In this document: piece after piece, positions 43,464 to 49,048 of the stretch
Numbering within the stretch: the first letter of the stretch is position 1
Layout: every line of letters starts with the position of its first letter
From: Gammaproteobacteria bacterium
GTDB taxonomy: Bacteria; Pseudomonadota; Gammaproteobacteria; Steroidobacterales; JABDKV01
DNA length: 64,000 nucleotides
Reading direction: 5' to 3'
NCBI GenBank assembly: GCA_029862165.1
Contig: JAOTXU010000014.1
Location: 1-64,000 of the forward strand
Made by a program: the position numbers and the translations under genes
Notes under the pieces: model-generated
Database searches by the model: none
What the model was told of the DNA's origin: nothing
What the model saw: only the letters and a program-made list of their open reading frames with translations

Positions 43464-44033
43464 CTAATGCACGCCACGTGATTGACCTCGCTTGCGGCAG
43501 CCCGGGCACACCGTTTTGGTCAGGGACAGTGAATCGTGCATGTAGATATTCTGACACGTCGCACAGCGGGTGAACTGCAGCTCGTCGCCACGGACCAGCG
43601 CGTCCAGCAGAAACCAGGCGCGTTCGAAACAGATACGCCGTGCCGGATGCAGAAGGCAGTACATGTCATAGGCGAGGCAAAAACGTTGGCCGAACTCCAC
43701 TGTAGATTTTGAAAGCAACAATTTGGGTGATTGACCGAGCCGTAACAGAATCAAGCCCGCATCGGCGAAGAGCAGGCCCAGCGTGCTGGATTCGCTCTGA
43801 TGCAGGCCAGTCTTTACGTACACGGAAATCCGTGACGGTGGTTTGCCACGTTGGCGACGCACCTGCATCAATGGCTCTTCCTTGAAATAGGTGGTGTAGA
43901 TTTTTCGTATGCGGTCATCGGAAAGACCGGTGCAGGTTCTGATCGTGCAGGTGCGCGCCTCATAGGCGATCATCCGCATGGCCAATTCAAATTGCGTGCG
44001 TTCACGAGCGTAGCGACTGTCACTGATTCTCAT
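43464..44033 (-). CDS. FlhC-like flagellar transcriptional activator family protein
   Basis: Helical N-terminus with LSDDRIRKIYTTYFKE, FERAWFLLDALVRGDELQFTRC and four-Cys C-terminus CATC...CPGC; layout like FlhC. Confidence 0.75.
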   Translation of the reverse strand: MRISDSRYARERTQFELAMRMIAYEARTCTIRTCTGLSDDRIRKIYTTYFKEEPLMQVRRQRGKPPSRISVYVKTGLHQSESSTLGLLFADAGLILLRLGQSPKLLLSKSTVEFGQRFCLAYDMYCLLHPARRICFERAWFLLDALVRGDELQFTRCATCQNIYMHDSLSLTKTVCPGCRKRGQSRGVH

Positions 44034-44295
44034 CCTGGTCCCTCCCTCTCGGACCGAACGTCGGGGTGACGAATTGAAACGCCTGGACCCGCAATCTGTC
44101 CCCACCCTATTTGTTCCAAAATGCACAGATATGCTACGGTCGGGACGAAAATTGTGCGAAATAGTACAATCCAGAGGCCCATTCCTTGGGTTTTGAATGA
44201 TTTAAAATTAGAAAGGATGAATCAAAAAACACTCTATTTCATATAGTTATCAAGAGTGCCATGTTAGATCGCCGATGGCACAATGCAACAAATTC

Positions 44296-44314
44296 GTGCC
44301 AGTGTCACTGGCAC
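44296..44314. promoter_or_regulatory. Perfect palindrome GTGCCAGTG-T-CACTGGCAC upstream of the FlhD-like gene
   Basis: Read directly; 9-bp arms, 1-nt centre, 28 bp before the ATG. Confidence 0.6.
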
Positions 44315-44342
44315 AAAACCAACCACTGCGGAGGAGAGTCTC

Positions 44343-44960
44343 ATGCCGGCAAATGATCTCACCGGCAACGTAATCGAGCCGGAATTGGGTCGTCACATCC
44401 TGGCCGAACTTGCGGACCTGAACGCGGACTTCATCAGCCTAATTAAAAGTACTGAATCGTGCATCCATCGACCATCACTGCCCGACGAACAAATCGAACA
44501 ATTACGTGCGTTGAGCAAGCCTGCTGTCCGTCGTTTGACCAATTGCGCATTCGCGCTGTTTGATTTGCGTTTACAAGACGCGGACCTGTGGCGTGCCTTA
44601 GGGGACGGCAAACCACCCAAGGGATTCTCCGTCAATGACGCACTCGGTGGCAACGAGCTACACGGTCCGGTCCGATTATTCACACTGTCGGCGTTGATGT
44701 ATCTGCGGCACTTGTCCGATATCAATCGCTTTTTTGCCAAGCTGAGTTTTGGCGTCTCACCGGAAGTGCTTGAAATCGTCAGCAAGTTAGCCATTAACCA
44801 ACTACGTGAAATCGCAAACCGGTATCCGACCTTGCTTTGCGGCCGGTTTGGACAACACCCACAGGCCTGGACCGATCTTCTGAAACTGGCTAAACGCAAC
44901 GATACCGAACCGATGTTACCGGCCAAGATACTTGGCTATAAGCATCTCTACCAGCAGTAG
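44343..44960 (+). CDS. Protein with two tandem FlhD-like domains (putative FlhC partner)
   Basis: Strong Shine-Dalgarno GGAGGAGAG; repeats LPDEQIEQLRALSKPAVRRLTNCAFALFDLRLQDADLWRAL and VSPEVLEIVSKLAINQLREIANRYPTLLCGRFGQHPQAWTDLL both resemble FlhD core. Confidence 0.6.
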   Translation: MPANDLTGNVIEPELGRHILAELADLNADFISLIKSTESCIHRPSLPDEQIEQLRALSKPAVRRLTNCAFALFDLRLQDADLWRALGDGKPPKGFSVNDALGGNELHGPVRLFTLSALMYLRHLSDINRFFAKLSFGVSPEVLEIVSKLAINQLREIANRYPTLLCGRFGQHPQAWTDLLKLAKRNDTEPMLPAKILGYKHLYQQ

Positions 44961-45197: not shown

Positions 45198-46268
45198 TTA
45201 TGGTCCCCCAGCGATCAGTTCCTGATAGTCCGATATTTGCCGGTCGGTCAGGTTTTGCAAATCGGCGCGATTGCCGTTGCGAAAGCTCTCATACCACAAC
45301 GCTGACCATTCGAGTGTTGTGTCGACATCGAGTACTGCCCGAAAACCGAGCATCTCGGAAGCCTTGGTTGAATCGAGCTCAAGCCAGGCCGCCTCACGGC
45401 TGGGCTGCGCACCGGCGTCACGCCACTGCAGATCGGGCCAGTAGGACTGGAGTTTTGCGATCAGGGCACGCACCGACAGCGCTTGCTCGTGTGCCGGCCC
45501 GAAATTGAACGACTCGCCGCTGGCAAACGAGCCCTCATCCATACGCCTGGCAAGCAGCAGGTAGCCTGCCAGCGGTTCCAGCACGTGCTGCCACGGGCGC
45601 ACCGATTCAGGATTGCGAATTTGCAGCGCCTGGTCATTGACCCACGCACGATATGCATCCGGAACGATTCGATGGGCCGACCAGTCCCCGCCACCGACGA
45701 CGTTGCCGGCGCGGGCGGTCGCTATTGCCGGTAGCCGGTCGGAGAAAAACGAACGACAGTAGGCGCGCACACCCATTTCCGCGCAAGCCTTGGATGCGCT
45801 ATATGGGTCCGTTCCACCCAGCGGATCGTCTTCTACAAAGCGCGCGCCAGGGCGCTGGTTCTCGTAGACCTTGTCGGTGGTTACGATGACGACCGTTTTT
45901 ACAGTCGGCGCCTGACGCACCGCTTCGAGCACTTTCAGTGTGCCGATGACATTGGTATCGAAAGTGTCGATGGGGCTGGTGTACGACTCCAGCACAATCG
46001 ATTGGGCGGCGAGGTGAAAAACGATCTGCGCCTGGGAATTACGCAGCGCCTCGGTCAGTTGCGCCAGATCGCGGATATCGCCTGTTATGTGTGTCAGCCG
46101 CTGGCCTACGTCGAGCGCGGTAAAAAACGACGGCTGTGTCGGAATGTCGATCGAGTAACCGGTAATACTGGCACCGAGTTTTTCCAGCCAGTACGACAGC
46201 CAGGCTCCCTTGAATCCGGTATGCCCGGTAACGAAGACGTTCTTGCCGGAGTAGAAATCGGTCAGCAT
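45198..46268 (-). CDS. rfbG: CDP-glucose 4,6-dehydratase
   Basis: FYSGKNVFVTGHTGFKGAWLSYWLEKLGASITGYS; follows rfbF. Confidence 0.9.
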   Translation of the reverse strand: MLTDFYSGKNVFVTGHTGFKGAWLSYWLEKLGASITGYSIDIPTQPSFFTALDVGQRLTHITGDIRDLAQLTEALRNSQAQIVFHLAAQSIVLESYTSPIDTFDTNVIGTLKVLEAVRQAPTVKTVVIVTTDKVYENQRPGARFVEDDPLGGTDPYSASKACAEMGVRAYCRSFFSDRLPAIATARAGNVVGGGDWSAHRIVPDAYRAWVNDQALQIRNPESVRPWQHVLEPLAGYLLLARRMDEGSFASGESFNFGPAHEQALSVRALIAKLQSYWPDLQWRDAGAQPSREAAWLELDSTKASEMLGFRAVLDVDTTLEWSALWYESFRNGNRADLQNLTDRQISDYQELIAGGP

Positions 46269-46281
46269 GAATCGGCCGCGT

Positions 46282-47079
46282 TCAAATCCAGGGTGGGTGT
46301 CCGGTTGCACACAGCTCTTCGAGCATATCGCGATCGCGAACGGTGTCCATGCATTGCCAGAAACCGTGGTGAGCATGCGCCGCCATTTGCCCGTCGGCGG
46401 CGATTCGCTCGAGCGCATCGCGCTCGAGATTCGTTGCGTCGTCGTCGATGTAATCGAACACACCGGGCTCCATGACAAAAAAACCGCCGTTTATCCACTG
46501 CCCCTGAGCATCCGTCAGAGTCTGAGTGAAGTCCGGTTTCTCGACAAACTTTTCGACTTCATGCGGCTGACCAGTGTTCAGACGTAATCCACCGAATCTG
46601 CTCAGCGGTCTGACCGCCGTTACCGTTACCAGCTTGCCGTGTGCGCGGTGCACTTTGAGCAGCTCAGCGAGATCGACATTCGCCACACCGTCGCCGTACG
46701 TCACCATAAAGGTATCGGCGGCCAACGTCTGTTTTAACCGCAACAGGCGCCCACCGGTCTGCGATGTCTGCCCGGTATCGACCAGCGCGACCTTCCAGTT
46801 CCTGCGATCCTGGCTTTGCGTCCGATAGCTGACATTTCCGGTGTCGAGATCGACTGTCGCGTCTGAGGTCATCGCGTAGTAGTTGAGGAAATATTCTTTG
46901 ACTTGTTCACCCTTGTAACCGAGCGCAAGGACAAAGTCGTTGTGGCCCTGCCGGCCGTAGATATCCAGGATGTGCCACAAAATCGGCTTGCCGCCTATGT
47001 ACACCATCGGCTTCGGGCGCTTGCCGGTCTCCTCCGCCAGCCGGGTGCCCAAACCGCCACACAAAATCACAGTTTTCAT
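46282..47079 (-). CDS. rfbF: Glucose-1-phosphate cytidylyltransferase
   Basis: MKTVILCGGLGTRLAEETGKRPKPMVYIGGKPILWHIL. Confidence 0.95.
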   Translation of the reverse strand: MKTVILCGGLGTRLAEETGKRPKPMVYIGGKPILWHILDIYGRQGHNDFVLALGYKGEQVKEYFLNYYAMTSDATVDLDTGNVSYRTQSQDRRNWKVALVDTGQTSQTGGRLLRLKQTLAADTFMVTYGDGVANVDLAELLKVHRAHGKLVTVTAVRPLSRFGGLRLNTGQPHEVEKFVEKPDFTQTLTDAQGQWINGGFFVMEPGVFDYIDDDATNLERDALERIAADGQMAAHAHHGFWQCMDTVRDRDMLEELCATGHPPWI

Positions 47080-47175
47080 GCTGGCAATCTATTCCCGTCG
47101 CCGCGCAACTGCAATCCACCCAGCGCAACCGTCTCTGGCTGGTTCGAGCCGAATCGTCTAACATCGATCGCCGAC

Positions 47176-48132
47176 ATGGCCAAAAAAACCATATCCGTCT
47201 GCATTCCCGTTCTCAACGAAGCAAAGAATCTCGAGCACGCCGTAGCGCGTGTCGAGACACTGTTTGCGACCACCCTCTCAGACTACGCGCTTGAAATAAT
47301 CATTACTGACAACGCGTCGACCGATGACACCTGGGACGAGATCGGTCGCCTTGCGCAGTCGCGAAGTCATCTCAAGGGGTTCAGGTTCTCAAGAAATTTT
47401 GGCTACCAGAATTCCGTATTTTCCGCGTTGAGCCTGTCGACGGGCGATGCTGCCGTTGAGCTCGATGCCGATCTGGAGGATCCGCCGGAAGTGATCCGGG
47501 AATTTGTCGCCGAATGGGAAGCCGGACATGACGTTGTTTACGGTGTGCGCACTAAGCGCTACGCGCCATTCTTGTTGAAAACATTGATCGGCGGTTTTTA
47601 CTGGCTGCTGAATCGGGTGTCCGATATCGAGATCCCGCAGAACGCTGGTGATTTCCGATTGCTGGACAGAAAAGTCGTCGAGGTTTTGAAGAGCCTGCCG
47701 GAAAGCGGGCTGTATGTACGCGGGCTGGTCGGGTATCTCGGTTTCCGCCAAAAGGGGGTCGAATACGAACGCCAGCCGCGGGCCGACGGACTGAGCAAGT
47801 TCAGTTATCTTCGTTATGTGGGTCTGGCGCTGGACGCGGTGACCGCTTTTTCGAAGACGCCGTTGCGGCTGATTACGCTACTGGGTTTCGTTATTTTCGT
47901 TGTCGCTATGCTGATCGCACTGCGCCTGCTCTGGGTTTACCTGTTTCACGGTATTCAGGTGCAGGGCTTCATGACACTGGCCCTGCTGCTGCTCGTTTTG
48001 CATGGACTTACATTCATGGTACTCGGCGTCCTCGGTGAGTACCTCGGCCGGGTATTCGACCACAGCAAGCAACGCCCGAGAGCAATTATTGCAGAGGCTG
48101 TCAACGTCGCTGACTATCCACGAGTAATCTGA
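47176..48132 (+). CDS. GT2 glycosyltransferase, DPM1/GtrB-like
   Basis: SVCIPVLNEAKNLEHAV, AAVELDADLEDPPEVI, two C-terminal TM segments. Confidence 0.9.
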   Translation: MAKKTISVCIPVLNEAKNLEHAVARVETLFATTLSDYALEIIITDNASTDDTWDEIGRLAQSRSHLKGFRFSRNFGYQNSVFSALSLSTGDAAVELDADLEDPPEVIREFVAEWEAGHDVVYGVRTKRYAPFLLKTLIGGFYWLLNRVSDIEIPQNAGDFRLLDRKVVEVLKSLPESGLYVRGLVGYLGFRQKGVEYERQPRADGLSKFSYLRYVGLALDAVTAFSKTPLRLITLLGFVIFVVAMLIALRLLWVYLFHGIQVQGFMTLALLLLVLHGLTFMVLGVLGEYLGRVFDHSKQRPRAIIAEAVNVADYPRVI

Positions 48133-49048
48133 GCCAGGCTTGTATCGGCCCGATCTGTCGGTCGGCCGCAGGCCCCAGTACCCAACGTGGGGCCGGCTCG
48201 AACGTTTGTTGCAGGTTTTCGTGTTCCGACCGCTGCAGCGCACCTGTTTGCAGCAGCTCCGGGCAGGCGAAGTGCTCGAAAACGGCCTCGGCCAGCTCGC
48301 GCAGTGTCAGCGGCCGGCCGTGACTCAAGGTTGCGATCGGGCCGAAAGTCCATTGGCATCGCAGCAGCGTGGCAAGCGAGTTGGCAACGGTCTCAACCGC
48401 GTGAAACTCTCTTAGTTGTTCGCCGGAAGACATGCGAAATGTAGTGTGCTCGCGCAACGCCTGTGCCATTTGGCCGAGGAACATGTGTGGCCGCGTCTGT
48501 CCACCATAGACAGTGTGCAACCGCAGGTGCAGAAGCTGTCCGCTCTTGTCGCCCCCTGCGCCGGTGTTGGTCGACATCCAGTCCGACAGTTTGCACTTGG
48601 AGGCCAGATAGGGGTTGGCGCGGGCCAGCGAGTTCAGCGCCTCCAGCGCCGAACCCAGTGTCAGAAAACGTACACACGGCGCAGTCGTATCCAGAAACGG
48701 CTCGATAATCTCACCCGGTAGCCGCACATTGGCATCGTCCAGAGTCTGGCGGTTTGCGCGCGGGTCGGTCTGACCGATCGCTATGACCACGGTCAGCCAC
48801 TGCGGCGAGCGCAATGTCGCTGTCAGGCTCCGAATCGTCCGGATGACCATTGCACCACTGCGTGTATCGAGCGCTATCGGCTTTTGCCCGATGTCATCGG
48901 AGTCCAGCCGCGCCAACAGCGCGGTGCCGATGTTGCCCCGGGAACCGACGACCAGCACCGGACCGGTCTGTGGAGCGGGCGCGGACTGAGCAAACCCGGA
49001 CGGAATGACGATAGCCGCACCTCGCCGTTTTCTATCGATGTCGCGCAT
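48101..49048 (-). CDS. NAD-dependent sugar epimerase/reductase-like (SDR)
   Basis: VLVVGSRGNIGTALLARL; located with CDP-sugar genes. Confidence 0.65.
   Translation of the reverse strand: MRDIDRKRRGAAIVIPSGFAQSAPAPQTGPVLVVGSRGNIGTALLARLDSDDIGQKPIALDTRSGAMVIRTIRSLTATLRSPQWLTVVIAIGQTDPRANRQTLDDANVRLPGEIIEPFLDTTAPCVRFLTLGSALEALNSLARANPYLASKCKLSDWMSTNTGAGGDKSGQLLHLRLHTVYGGQTRPHMFLGQMAQALREHTTFRMSSGEQLREFHAVETVANSLATLLRCQWTFGPIATLSHGRPLTLRELAEAVFEHFACPELLQTGALQRSEHENLQQTFEPAPRWVLGPAADRQIGPIQAWLRLLVDSQRR

Follow-up and report, generated by a model that had tools for sequence, protein, structure and literature searches.

In a 64,000-nucleotide stretch of a gammaproteobacterial genome (hereinafter, the window), an FlhC-like gene is paired divergently with a gene that encodes, as judged by sequence profiles and predicted fold, a genuine tandem FlhD, and this divergent cassette has become fixed within a single order of Gammaproteobacteria, inferred to be Woeseiales. 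The textbook master regulator of flagella is FlhDC, a switch of two proteins by which E. coli turns these organelles on. From comparative sequence analysis, it appears fairly probable that the pair described here is a hard-wired (FlhD-FlhD)2:FlhC2 transcription factor controlling its own divergent promoters, with a regulon that is non-flagellar.

The FlhC-like protein and the tandem FlhD

The minus-strand gene at 43464-44033 encodes a protein of 189 amino acids for which a sequence-only reading of the window, made without database searches, had suggested an FlhC-like identity; the open reading frame is present at these coordinates, and its homology to FlhC is borne out by both profile and fold. 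The protein combines a helical N-terminal part, an HTH-like segment (EART...CTGLSDDRIRKIY), a basic RxRGKxP motif and a C-terminal CxxC-N15-CxxC zinc ribbon. The Pfam FlhC profile (PF05280) matches the window protein alone with an E-value of 8.2e-6 and 26.1 bits, that is, 0.9 bits short of the 27-bit cut-off, and matches all 43 FlhC-like relatives in the protein alignment A4 (E <= 0.01; best 5.2e-10). The four zinc-site cysteines are invariant in sets of 30 and 43 relatives. In a Foldseek search of the PDB with the AlphaFold (AF2) model of this protein (pLDDT 90.9), good E-values were obtained for FlhC chains only, those of C. necator and E. coli (8j56_C, 7.9e-6; 8j56_F, 1.2e-5; 2avu_E, 2.1e-5; probability 1.0 for 8j56_C and 2avu_E), so that this protein has an FlhC fold together with the Cys4 zinc site. 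A different zinc-ribbon family, the outcome that would have spoken against the original assignment, is ruled out by the fold.

The plus-strand gene at 44343-44960, likewise present as stated, encodes a protein of 205 amino acids with two FlhD domains (approximately, residues 12-92 and 105-205). The complete protein is matched by the Pfam FlhD profile (PF05247) above the cut-off (E 4.3e-7). In profile-profile comparison with hhalign, using an alignment of 74 relatives, each half independently matches canonical FlhD (E 1.6e-11 for the first half and 1.2e-6 for the second), as the sequence-only reading had surmised, and the halves also match each other (E 1.4e-4). In the AF2 model (pLDDT 87.9), the succession of a long helix, short helices, a beta element and a helix occurs twice, and the only high-probability Foldseek matches are FlhD chains (probability 0.82-0.99), each aligned to a single domain; the E-values of these matches are weak (~0.3-2.6), given that every such chain in the PDB comprises a single FlhD. 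Thus, the FlhD profile is recovered in both halves together with the FlhD fold, and the absence of that fold from both halves, which would have told against the original assignment, did not materialize. A single-sequence search of the contigs with the tandem FlhD retrieved no relatives because FlhD evolves fast; with the FlhC-like alignment, 270 were retrieved.

Between the window and a genome of the same genus (G003), the three codon positions diverge by 14/14/50 % in the FlhC-like gene and by 38/28/57 % in the tandem flhD, the pattern of coding genes. A frame or assembly artefact is ruled out by this codon pattern along with the presence of more than 100 loci in many genomes. The mean column identity is 67 % for the FlhC-like protein (A4) versus 41 % for the tandem FlhD (A3); this far greater conservation of FlhC would fit a division of work in which the FlhC subunit is the one holding DNA and the FlhD subunit changes along with partners or signals.

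Distribution and inheritance of the cassette

When the phylogenetic distribution of the divergent pair was surveyed, a check that the sequence-only reading had proposed, the pair was found in 42 of the 47 good genomes (completeness of at least 90 %) of the order. In profile searches, the FlhC-like gene was identified in 48 of 60 relatives overall, with scores of ~98-285 bits, most of them >180 and the lowest being that of a gene split in two frames. One FlhC-like gene (G030:C7:157271-157980, L017) is split in two overlapping frames, which reflects either a frameshift or an assembly error. Among the sampled relatives from families f15 and f16, with genomes of 1.3-2.3 Mb, there was no match for the pair by profile search.

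The divergent layout seen in the window recurs in 125 of 128 loci, and two more, in genome G051, are divergent by coordinate inspection. Leaving aside one locus cut off by the end of its contig, a tandem FlhD adjoins every FlhC-like locus examined, and it is the sole FlhD form found next to these loci. The only co-directional, operon-like exception is G028 (contig C7; L012, 1474-2853), where tandem flhD and flhC adjoin a dinB-like gene and nudC. An f10 genome, G026, carries a second, diverged pair, also divergent in layout and without the usual neighbours (C1:957619-958835, L013).

Outside the order, only ordinary flhD-flhC operons were detected in the genomes sampled. In a sample of 399 genomes from the phylum, there was no other cassette, and the matches from beyond the order were canonical FlhC scoring at most 46 bits; in a sample of 369 genomes from the class, matches at E <= 1e-12 came from members of this order only. 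A single-domain FlhD lies upstream on the same strand in 16 of 17 canonical loci. The identity of the order is inferred from the taxonomy of the 80 named loci: 32 are filed under order Woeseiales, another 7 under Chromatiales, and all others are unplaced below the class.

In the FlhC protein tree, GTDB families stay together, and 16 of the 17 canonical FlhC are set apart by a branch with a length of 5.96 changes per column; the 17th (L165) and some f12 sequences form long branches of unsure placement. The simplest reading of this topology is mostly vertical inheritance of the cassette. A regulator carried by a mobile element is ruled out, considering that the clades of the tree follow GTDB families and that a tblastn search against 72,556 plasmids gave no match.

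Palindromes in the divergent promoter region

The region between the two start codons (44034-44342), which had been described as AT-rich, is so only mildly, with 53 % AT versus 44.5 % in the whole window, and is not extreme. Motif discovery in 104 non-redundant gaps revealed a palindrome, ttaCcaTaTaTGgTc-n6-gAcCAtAtAtgGtaa, that is present in most loci and the letters of which drift by family: TATGGGAAAATTTTCCCATA in f10, TTTGGTCCAAATGGACCAAA, twice, in f5, and TTTGTTCCAAAATGCACAGA with ATTGTGCGAAATAGTACAAT in the window, where both sites are imperfect palindromes. No clear motif was detected in the gaps of f14 and parts of f12. The first putative operator of the window, TTTGTTCCAAAATGCACAGA (44110-44129, plus strand), is the best match of the gap to the order-wide palindrome (19.7 bits) and is also present in L002, one of the two nearest relatives. 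The second, ATTGTGCGAAATAGTACAAT (44151-44170, plus strand), located 41 bp from the first, fits the lineage consensus WTTGTKCNAAANWGNACANW, which was derived from these two sites themselves; the 41-bp spacing is shared with L002 and with family f5. Shortly before the start of tandem flhD, there is a near-perfect palindrome, TTCGTGCCAGTGTCACTGGCACAAA (44293-44317), with similar sequence in L002 and L003, which could be either a third operator or a leader hairpin. In Woeseiaceae, the motif coincides in part with the probable RBS/-10 of the FlhC-like gene. A scan of the gap for sigma-70 promoters gave nothing above chance.

A second site lies at 51 bp in 34 of the 104 gaps and at 40-41 bp in 14, compared with approximately one per spacing in shuffles; a spacing of 20, also frequent, is a half-site shift that is equally present in shuffles. 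The palindrome exceeds 18 bits in 75 of the 80 named gaps, a score that is circular inasmuch as these very gaps served to train the motif, and the independent count is that from outside, with no site above 18 bits in the 1.28 Mb flanking the 80 loci. Whole-genome scans that allowed 3 mismatches placed the long f10/f2 palindrome in its own gap and nowhere else in G073, G026, G085 and G045, and missed it in G055; the short f10 form was again confined to its own gap, apart from two control-level matches in G079. The f5 form yielded its own two sites only in G008 and G035, with two further imperfect, control-level matches in G022. The window form gave its own two sites in the window genome (G000) and otherwise control-level matches there and in G003; no further operator-like site in G000, the contig with flagellar genes included, rose above control level. 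Regulon searches with a loose core (GGTCCAWNTGGACC, 2 mismatches) and with half-sites produced matches at control level only, in addition to, with half-sites, the pair's own promoter. As no match elsewhere in the genomes tested rose above control level, the visible boxes are those of the promoter of the pair itself.

The palindromes are thus conserved putative operators that are essentially confined to the gap. Mutual or auto-regulation had been suggested by the sequence-only reading from the layout of the genes; because the palindromes are conserved and gap-confined, this suggestion now draws on sequence beyond layout.

Neighbouring genes and alternative roles of the palindromes

The cassette occurs in two alternative neighbourhoods, each stable across families. 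In most families, an ABC transporter ATPase gene follows tandem flhD on the same strand (68 of 74 loci), and nudC comes after the FlhC-like gene (73 of 78 loci). In f1, f5 and f9, the neighbours are genes for a DASS-type anion symporter and a threonine dehydratase-like protein, the latter missing from the window itself and from one truncated locus. The cassette has outlived this change of neighbourhood. Downstream of tandem flhD, at 45198-49048, the window contains a surface-sugar cluster (CDP-glucose 4,6-dehydratase, glucose-1-phosphate cytidylyltransferase, a PgfS-like glycosyltransferase and an epimerase-like open reading frame); in G003, a different gene occupies this place.

The pair might act as nothing more than a local switch of the genes linked to it (the ABC ATPase and permease and nudC or, in f1, f5 and f9, the DASS-type symporter), a role that we consider possible if rather doubtful. 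The frequency of these linkages, the stability of both neighbourhood types over families and the lack of operator matches above control level elsewhere in the genomes tested would all be in keeping with such a switch. However, in f1, f5 and f9, the neighbours have been wholly exchanged and the cassette persists, with the symporter alone co-directional, and neither set of neighbours is found at f14 or at the second pair of G026.

It is less likely still that the protein binding the palindromes is a different, unlinked regulator of the pair, while the pair itself acts elsewhere via degenerate sites. The confinement of the palindrome to the gap implies that it need not be the general box of the pair, and resemblance to the boxes of known relatives is weak evidence, given that the motif of SetCD is drastically different from the boxes of FlhDC and of AcaCD (PMC4344509). 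For the same reason, the likeness between the core of the AcaCD box, GCCCAAAATGGGC (PMC5058578), and GGTCCAAATGGACC of family f5 is only suggestive. Nevertheless, this likeness and the dyad spacing by integer helical turns fit a binder of the FlhDC type, and a regulator with a single target, namely, the promoter of another regulator, with a site that drifts by family, is less economical than autoregulation.

Relation to flagella

The genome-wide search for flagellar genes that the sequence-only reading had called for located a cluster on contig C12 of the window genome, which is flagellated; it includes FlhA, FliA, two NtrC-type sigma-54 regulators and a sensor kinase, a layout reminiscent of FleQ/FleSR in Pseudomonas. 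By tblastn, none of the proteins of this cluster is matched in the window, in keeping with the earlier remark that the window is free of flagellar genes. FlhA is present in 25 of the above 60 relatives. In the genomes that are at least 90 % complete, the pair occurs together with FlhA in 20 and in the absence of FlhA in 22, which span many families; another 5 lack both, and there is no genome with FlhA but no pair. Hence, the pair is not tied to flagella, and the 22 of 42 carriers that lack FlhA support the earlier proposal of a non-flagellar regulon, in that the pair probably controls something other than swimming. In Woeseiaceae, flagellar genes are likewise reported to occur mainly in sediment members (PMC12175321).

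That the pair still is the flagellar master regulator of the order, rearranged but with the old function, is very improbable: its homology to FlhDC and the lack of FlhA in all 5 pair-less genomes (0 of 5 versus 20 of 42 pair-carrying ones; Fisher p 0.06) would agree with such a role, but it is largely refuted because flagella-less members keep intact pairs and the cluster of the window genome has its own FliA and sigma-54 regulators, and the flagellar contig of that genome is also devoid of operator-like sites above control level.

Proposed model and comparison with known systems

We infer that the two genes encode subunits of one heteromeric transcription factor of the FlhDC type, in which one fused chain would take the place that an FlhD dimer has in the classical FlhD4C2 ring, and that the pair itself binds the palindromes of the gap and autoregulates. 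The complex would most likely be (FlhD-FlhD)2:FlhC2, the equivalent of the ring; it would bind the boxes between the genes, often two at integer helical turns (40-41 or 51 bp), and binding there would allow the pair to control its own expression. Such a pair would be a chromosomal, vertically inherited core regulator of this order rather than a flagellar master. Its wider regulon would be non-flagellar, including either other targets with sites too degenerate to see or only adjacent genes, namely, nudC along with an operon for an ABC transporter in most families and the anion symporter in f1, f5 and f9. A global regulator without a visible second target is odd, and this speaks against the model, as do the imperfect palindromes of the window, the overlap of the motif with the probable RBS/-10 in Woeseiaceae and the families in which no clear motif is seen. 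The chances seem about even that the cassette represents a fixed, flagella-independent branch of FlhDC with a covalent FlhD dimer, for which its own divergent promoter is the sole recognisable box, that is, an autogenous, possibly bistable, non-flagellar switch at the core of regulation in an order that is dominant in marine sediments. Woeseiales are abundant seafloor bacteria (PMC7082342); the pair could offer a handle on gene control in this order, and the two diverged FlhD copies, being separately mutable, would provide a built-in test of the division of work between FlhD protomers and FlhC. Among the top results from the open-access literature, no paper joined Woeseiales with FlhC, and none discussed a tandem FlhD.

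The E. coli complex has the stoichiometry FlhD4C2 (PMC3510510). With FlhDC of E. coli and C. necator (PDB 2avu, 8j56), the pair shares the FlhC fold with its zinc ribbon, FlhD domains in both halves of the partner and the adjacency of the C and D genes. In contrast to these systems, D is a tandem fusion here instead of a single-domain FlhD co-transcribed with FlhC, the genes are divergent, with no flhD-flhC operon (G028 alone being co-directional), and the pair has no ties to flagellar genes, being kept in genomes without flagella. Like AcaCD of IncC plasmids and SetCD of SXT/R391 ICEs, the pair belongs to the FlhDC family, and those relatives are activators with non-flagellar targets. However, AcaCD and SetCD sit on mobile elements (PMC5058578, PMC4344509), from which they control conjugation, whereas the pair described here, rather than residing on a conjugative element and activating transfer genes, is chromosomal and order-wide. 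Such an order-wide chromosomal version with a linked FlhD dimer would be a case of the FlhDC architecture having become a general regulator.
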